Source: Deltaproteobacteria bacterium
GTDB taxonomy: Bacteria; UBA10199; SPLOWO2-01-44-7
NCBI GenBank assembly: GCA_023265595.1
Contig: JAHFSU010000012.1
Coordinates: forward strand, 1-53,144
Reading direction: 5' to 3'
DNA: 53,144 nucleotides
A program made the translations under genes and the position numbers. Of the stretch, positions 13,324 through 15,332 are shown piece by piece (position 1 is the first letter of the stretch; the number at the start of each line of letters is the position of its first letter). A model generated the notes under the pieces. It saw only the letters and a program-made list of their open reading frames with translations. It was not told the origin of the DNA and ran no database searches.

Positions 13324-13396
13324 GCCGAGGTAGCTCAGTTGGCAGAGCATCTCCATGGTAAGGAGAAGGTCGACGGTTCGATTCCGTTCCTCGGCT
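13324..13396 (+). tRNA. tRNA-Thr(GGT)
   Basis: A 73-nt cloverleaf with acceptor GCCGAGG / CCTCGGC, anticodon arm TCTCC-ATGGTAA-GGAGA (anticodon GGT) and T-arm GGTTCGATTCC. It starts 5 bp after the LysM stop. Unlike the three tRNAs before it, a CCA (13397-13399) is encoded directly after the discriminator. Its last 16 bases and 9 more are duplicated 103 bp downstream. Confidence 0.97.
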
Positions 13397-13508
13397 CCAG
13401 TTAAAAGGCAGAGAGCGAGTATTGACAGACATCAGCCGACCCACGACAGTGTTACTACACTGTCGTGGGTACCCCGTCTGCCAATTCCGTTCCTCGGCTC
13501 CAGTTAAA
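13381..13508. repeat. 25-bp tRNA-end direct repeat around a hairpin insert
   Basis: The 25 bp at 13381-13405, covering the 3' end of tRNA-Thr(GGT), CCA and GTTAAA, recur exactly at 13484-13508. The 78 bp between them contain a perfect 14-bp stem (13439-13452 against 13457-13470, loop TACT) and a shorter outer pairing GGCAGA / TCTGCC (13407-13412 and 13477-13482). No T-run follows, so it is not a standard terminator. The layout looks like an attachment-site or insertion footprint in a tRNA gene. Confidence 0.85.
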
Positions 13509-13527: not shown

Positions 13528-14124
13528 ATGAAAAAAATATTTTGCATGTCGGTCCTGTTTTTTTCAATAACCTTATTGGCAGCAGAACCGGTACAGGTTC
13601 TGCTCAAACTGGATGACAATTTCAAATCGGAATTGAAATGTGGCTGGAAAAGTGAGACAAAGCAGAAGTTTTGGGTTGGCATCCTTGAGGATGCCCGATC
13701 TGAAAAAGAGGTGGGAACCCTGATCACCAAAAAAGAGGATATTGCAGTGAATGCGAGCAAGCCGATTAATGAGGCCATTCAAGAAGCCTTTCAAAATGGT
13801 TTGAAAGGGTGTGGCTATCTGCTCGTTTCCAATAAGGAAGAGGCCGATTTTTGGCTGACAGGCCGGGTCGATGAATTTTCGGGAACCTCCAAAAAGGGAT
13901 TTTTTCGGGGAAAAGCCGAAGGACGGGCTGAGGTTACGCTCGATCTGGTTCGGACAGCGAATAAAGGGGAATATTCCCTCTCCCTTTCGGTGGGAGAATT
14001 TCAAAAAAAGGGTGTTTCCAAAAAGCCCAAAAAAGTTGAGGAAATGTTAAATCGGTTGTTGACTCGGCTCACATTAGATGTTTTGGAGTCGCAAAACATC
14101 GCTAATTGGATGAAAAATAATTAA
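13528..14124 (+). CDS. YajG-like exported protein
   Basis: A 198-residue protein with a cleavable signal peptide ([19 protein letters not shown], no lipobox Cys at the cleavage site). The body follows the YajG-like pattern: a VGILEDAR strand, an alternating region leading to [15 protein letters not shown], then [15 protein letters not shown] and [13 protein letters not shown]. YajG proteins are envelope proteins of unknown role, and this match is by pattern only. AAGGAG at 13517-13522 supports ATG 13528. An in-frame ATG at 13465 falls inside the hairpin insert and would bury the signal peptide. It sits between tRNA-Thr and tuf, normally adjacent genes. Confidence 0.65.

Positions 14125-14141: not shown

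Positions 14142-15332
<1,191 letters not shown>

Follow-up and report, generated by a model that had tools for sequence, protein, structure and literature searches.

REP/REPIN sequences, described as the GTAG and CGTC families, are short imperfect hairpins with an unpaired bulge that carry no gene and are dispersed in intergenic spacers, often just after a gene; their defining trait is a tag at one end, GTAG or CGTC, that stays unpaired (PMC3733652). Genomic islands at tRNA genes, as collected by Islander, consist of an intact tRNA gene, an insert and a displaced 3' fragment of the tRNA in the same orientation, with a boundary in the T-loop, and candidates below 2 kb are dropped by that program (PMC4383910). 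The tRNA T-loop is a known integrase crossover subsite, and island integration is classically recognised by the displaced 3' fragment of the tRNA (PMC4383910; PMC9897764).

Here we analyse a 53,144-bp stretch of bacterial DNA (the window) from genome G000, in which a tRNA-Thr(GGT) gene is followed by a hairpin-bearing insert and a second copy of the gene's own 3' end. By analogy, this element would work like a REP or MITE combined with the footprint of a tRNA island. Similar to REPs, it is a short imperfect palindrome with an unpaired bulge and a conserved structure, holds no gene, and is scattered over spacers, frequently right behind a gene (copies in G000, G004, G005 and G012); G000 also holds five Y1 transposase genes. 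Unlike REPs, it ends in ACATCAG or TGCCAG and in CTGCCA rather than in a tag, occurs about four times per genome rather than in high copy number with a RAYT gene flanked by repeats, lies within the flanks of none of the 22 Y1 genes examined, and is flanked by a 17–25-bp duplication at tRNAs and once elsewhere. Because tag, copy number and RAYT association all differ, we do not file it under a described REP family.

Like the tRNA islands, the locus combines an intact tRNA gene, an insert and, in matching orientation, a displaced piece of that tRNA, with the boundary in the T-loop. The insert contains no integrase gene and, at 78–86 bp, cannot encode one; moreover, the same ends recur from one tRNA to another, and one non-tRNA site, which has its own duplication, shares them. 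Without an integrase and far below island size, the element is therefore not filed as an island either. Among Cas1 systems, casposons duplicate about 14–15 bp of target, and CRISPR repeats are longer. Integration at tRNA 3' ends and a longer target duplication are likenesses to casposons and CRISPR spacer integration that we treat as a lead only, and the element differs from casposons in size and in having a hairpin instead of long terminal repeats. In E. coli, partial copies of the tRNA 3' end follow tyrT (the rtT RNA repeats), much as at the present locus, but they form one local tandem array, whereas the element is dispersed over several tRNAs and other loci. In the open-licence literature we found no description of sub-100-bp elements at tRNA T-loops.

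The tRNA-Thr(GGT) locus and its empty counterpart

The 3' end of tRNA-Thr(GGT) lies in an exact 25-nt direct repeat, ATTCCGTTCCTCGGCTCCAGTTAAA, whose copies are spaced 103 nt apart and enclose 78 bp (Table 1). Among direct repeats at least 16 nt long and spaced 30–300 nt apart, it is the only one in the whole window. Inside the insert, arms at 13439–13452 and 13457–13470 form a perfect 14-bp stem; the region with the insert folds with a z-score of -6.9, and none of 200 shuffled sequences was equally stable. Duplication and hairpin, including its four-nucleotide loop, are as the initial annotation had described them. It had also proposed an outer pairing of GGCAGA with TCTGCC. Both sequences are present in the insert (13407–13412 and 13477–13482), but their pairing is absent from homologous copies, and comparison gives better support to another outer helix, CAGCCG with CGTCTG, of which five of the six pairs are present at tRNA-Thr(GGT).

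Table 1. Positions in the window of the tRNA-Thr(GGT) gene, the element and its parts
Feature	Position	Strand	Basis
tRNA-Thr(GGT), intact, CCA included; holds repeat copy 1	13324..13399	+	ARAGORN; Rfam tRNA, 68 bits
25-bp repeat, copy 1; begins at T-loop base A58; core A58–C74 = 13381–13397	13381..13405	+	numbering read from the sequence
Element in the strict sense (17-bp duplication)	13398..13483	+	comparison with Thr-CGT, Ala-CGC and G012 copies
Element if the duplication is the whole 25 bp	13406..13483	+	comparison with Thr-CGT, Ala-CGC and G012 copies
Conserved left foot ACATCAG	13429..13435	+	invariant in alignment A1
Outer helix, 5' strand CAGCCG; pairs with 13475–13480	13433..13438	+	alignments A1 and A3, pair counts
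Inner hairpin, 14 bp, loop TACT	13439..13470	+	covarying in other copies
CGTCTG (outer helix, 3' strand) with right foot CTGCCA, abutting tRNA copy 2	13475..13483	+	same CTGCCA junction at Thr-CGT and Ala-CGC
25-bp repeat, copy 2 (displaced tRNA 3' end)	13484..13508	+	exact repeat
Gene for a small putative exported protein, then tuf; outside the element, marks the conserved neighbourhood	13528..14124	+	ORF list; G001 neighbourhood

An Rfam search of the insert region returned only tRNAs above threshold and matched no curated RNA family, and an intrinsic terminator sought at the locus was not found. An integron attC reading was rejected, the R-box sequences being absent from the junctions, as was a hammerhead reading of CTGATG on the minus strand, whose core is incomplete and which has no Rfam match.

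In the same-genus genome G001, the order tRNA-Thr, tRNA-Tyr, tRNA-Gly, LysM gene, tRNA-Thr(GGT), putative exported protein, tuf is kept, and in G004 and G005 the four tRNAs stand in unchanged order with the exported-protein gene after tRNA-Thr(GGT). All three relatives have a single tRNA-Thr(GGT) 3' end and no insert, in a comparison made among draft assemblies of the class, from stretches around tRNAs. This is the empty site that the initial annotation had proposed to look for; the conservation of the insert in all relatives, which it had named as evidence against an insertion, was not seen. We note that the copy at 13484 bears acceptor-stem and T-stem bases specific to G000, CCGTTCCTCGGC, at which the relatives differ. 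Consequently, the duplication either arose after those changes or has been maintained without divergence.

Further copies and the junction at A58

The element was also sought at other tRNA ends, as had been suggested from the locus, and was found there. A scan of tRNA flanks revealed a further G000 copy at tRNA-Thr(CGT) on contig C33, and covariance models built from the known copies led to tRNA-Ala(CGC) of G005 (E 2e-5) and to three copies in G012, a genome of another family of the class. In G004, the element lies in a broken tRNA-Arg copy adjoining an intact tRNA-Arg(TCG). Its hairpin appears again in G000 on contig C58 (19761–19803), together with a truncated copy (14534–14563). A scan with the element pattern over all genomes gave G004 only, plus one chance match in an apparent coding sequence of a Nanoarchaeum record; phage and plasmid records gave no match to the element, and viral contigs did not contain its pattern.

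These copies, recognised by sequence and structure, follow the plan ACATCAG, outer stem, hairpin, 3' bulge, CTGCCA. The clear ones have in common the outer helix, the inner hairpin and a 3' bulge containing CCC, with ACATCAG or TGCCAG as the left foot and CTG, mostly CTGC or CTGCCA, as the right foot, which the C58 copy has lost. Both helices covary, with changes on both sides at 8 of 20 helix pairs, and the covariation score was reached by none of 500 shuffles; this evidence is partly circular, since the covariance models came from the same copies. Near the additional copies on C58 (L006, 8000–18819) lie open reading frames that read as Fic-like, restriction-modification M-subunit-like and OLD-nuclease-like, and the region is possibly a defence island, judging from these readings.

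At tRNA-Thr(GGT), tRNA-Thr(CGT) and tRNA-Ala(CGC), the right end CTGCCA directly abuts T-loop base A58, in the context TTCG|AT(T/C)CC. The common order is the tRNA, about 28 nt starting (C/A)AG(T/C)TARAAA, the folded core, CTGCCA, and then the tRNA's own sequence from A58 to its end. In each of the three, the tRNA segment common to both sides is A58–C74 (17 nt), and it is always the tRNA's own 3' part, matched to its own acceptor stem, so that the segments differ between tRNAs. A larger element bounded by the same ends is not known. Independent tRNA cases are few: three have the exact junction and one does not. At tRNA-Thr(GGT), the identity continues past C74 through CAGTTAAA, which resembles the element's left end; either the duplication could be 25 bp long, or a second element, since lost, could have left its own end there. 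Duplication length varies among copies, being 17 bp at tRNA-Thr(CGT), about 17–22 bp at tRNA-Ala(CGC) and 25 bp elsewhere.

One of the G012 copies (contig C16) sits between genes read as aroA and rpsA and has on either side one copy of an exact 25-bp repeat of non-tRNA sequence, spacing 104. Target duplication therefore seems to be part of the element's mode of insertion. No flanking repeat surrounds the C58 copy, the G004 tRNA-Arg copy or two of the three G012 copies, apart from short matches that chance may explain; this may reflect decay or a second mode.

Insertion with target duplication and competing explanations

We consider it probable that a non-autonomous palindromic element inserted at tRNA-Thr(GGT) with duplication of its target. 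The best reading of the element itself is a gene-less, REP-like sequence of about 80–95 bp that prefers tRNA T-loops and lets the tRNA survive. Among the options raised by the initial annotation, a minimal non-autonomous element is the one best supported, by homologues at the same T-loop base of other tRNAs, by copies outside tRNAs and by the empty site in relatives. Insertion would involve several steps: (I) an enzyme supplied in trans would recognise the hairpin and the ends, (II) the two strands would be cut in a staggered way, one ahead of T-loop base A58 and one close to where the tRNA gene ends, and (III) joining and gap filling would duplicate the 17–25 bp between the cuts, so that the tRNA has its 3' part restored ahead of the element. 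The insertion would thereby be harmless, since the duplicated part rebuilds the tRNA. No mobilising gene came to light in a search that covered the Y1 transposase genes of these genomes, and confidence in any particular enzyme is low.

A footprint of a tyrosine integrase, left by a phage, ICE or IME that had the T-loop as its attB and whose sequence from attL to attR was later lost almost entirely, would account for the crossover subsite and the displaced fragment just as island integration does, and all three G000 tRNAs with a nearby self-copy have the 3' fragment downstream in the same orientation. We nevertheless regard it as unlikely. At three tRNAs in two genera the ends are shared and the size is similar (about 86–96 bp from one 17-nt copy to the next), which hardly suggests random remnants, and the island remnant proposed by the initial annotation is weakened for the same reason, several copies having size and ends in common. 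In classical attP–attB recombination, moreover, the element's own 3' half would stay in place, so that an attP carried into a different tRNA would yield a hybrid tRNA; yet each tRNA matches its own acceptor stem, and the G012 copy duplicates sequence that is not tRNA at all. Target duplication best explains how one family came to lie at tRNAs with different 3' halves without creating hybrids.

A local mutational origin would involve a structured tRNA gene that underwent template switching or a partial tandem duplication, and a junction where hairpins arose or accumulated. It could explain why fragments of varied length and position, some of them inverted, lie beside many tRNAs of the class, and why such fragments occur repeatedly in the tRNA-Thr(GGT)/tuf spacer. 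It would have to place the same element sequence at unlinked tRNAs and outside tRNAs with a constant junction base, in a window otherwise free of close direct repeats, and appears decidedly improbable. Least credible is a functional RNA, which would be a processing or regulatory structure within a transcript running from the tRNA into the mRNA, much like the repeats that follow tyrT in E. coli. The hairpin is stable and covarying, and tRNA-Thr fragments recur in the tRNA-Thr/tuf spacer of other families (G025, G022, G027); however, the insert is missing from G001 as well as from G004 and G005, the same element stands in unrelated contexts, and neither an Rfam family other than tRNA nor a terminator was detected. 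The processing structure considered in the initial annotation is weaker still than the island remnant, because relatives lack the insert.

If insertion of a non-autonomous element is the true account, tRNA genes would serve as landing sites for hairpin elements of less than 100 bp too, beyond islands and phages, and such elements escape any island finder that filters at a length of 2 kb. The long target duplication suggests an unusual insertion chemistry, and the fixed junctions make the question of the mobilising enzyme directly testable.

Partial tRNA self-copies in the class

We searched the flanks of tRNA genes, 400 nt to either side, for stretches of 13 nt or more copied from the same tRNA. 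Such self-copies lie beside 3 of 39 tRNAs in G000 and 8 of 42 in G004, both nearly complete tRNA samples; the values for G011 (7 of 20) and G005 (1 of 12, the Ala-CGC case left out) come from partial samples that include loci chosen for having a copy. None was found at 48 tRNAs in four genomes outside the class. For G000 and G004 combined, 11 of 81 against 0 of 48 gives a hand-estimated p of about 0.005 in a small sample.

Several unrelated inserts accompany these self-copies, and some are common to two genomes: one occurs at tRNA-Thr(CGT) in G011 and tRNA-Leu(CAA) in G036, and the G000 tRNA-Gly(CCC) insert recurs in an intergenic sequence of G001. The tRNA copies beside unrelated inserts at tRNA-Gly(CCC) in G000 and tRNA-Gln(CTG) in G004 also start at A58, and the one at tRNA-Arg(ACG) in G004 starts at most one base from it. 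It is a tentative and somewhat doubtful generalisation that the uncultured bacteria of the class carry several unrelated families of gene-less hairpins, with an undescribed insertion process that duplicates about 17–25 bp, often from A58, and for which tRNA genes are safe landing sites.

Further arrangements were seen around tRNA genes. REP-like hairpins ending in TCGGGA/TCCCGA directly abut tRNA fragments at several tRNAs in G011 (L192, L237, L239, L176, L183) and at one in G004 (L188). At tRNA-Ala(GGC) and tRNA-Arg(TCG) of G004 (L224, L055), the intact tRNA lies between two fragments, a 5' one upstream whose end is at the T-loop and a 3' one downstream whose start is there, as if a tRNA split at that loop enclosed a complete one. 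On contig C34 of G025 (L056, 704–930), two tandem units of about 105 bp lie between tRNA-Thr(GGT) and tuf, each made up of the D-loop-to-anticodon part of this tRNA, a hairpin and the 3' end of the tRNA. In G017 and G032 (L026, L028), the D-arm of tRNA-Thr(GGT) recurs in inverted orientation just 3' of the tRNA at contig ends; these copies match the tRNA variant of their own genome and may be real or an assembly effect. A small open reading frame with a helix-turn-helix-like start, perhaps homing-endonuclease-like, occupies different spots of the same tRNA cluster in G001 (L057, about 2170–2790) and G004 (L058, about 770–1360), as if it were mobile, to go by its sequence.

Element B (GAGCGAGTATTG) is a second structured repeat with dispersed copies; it has no Rfam match, and 14 nt in common with the insert's left arm make a link between the two possible. 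It consists of GAGCGAGTATTGGC, a covarying-looking stem, AAACGGAGCGAACGATG, CAGATGGGGG and a terminal hairpin. Element B often stands just 5' of genes, with several copies in G017, G015 and G025 and further ones in G030 and G035 (stretches L092, L094, L101, L103, L104 and L106–L111, near position 1500, some at other offsets).
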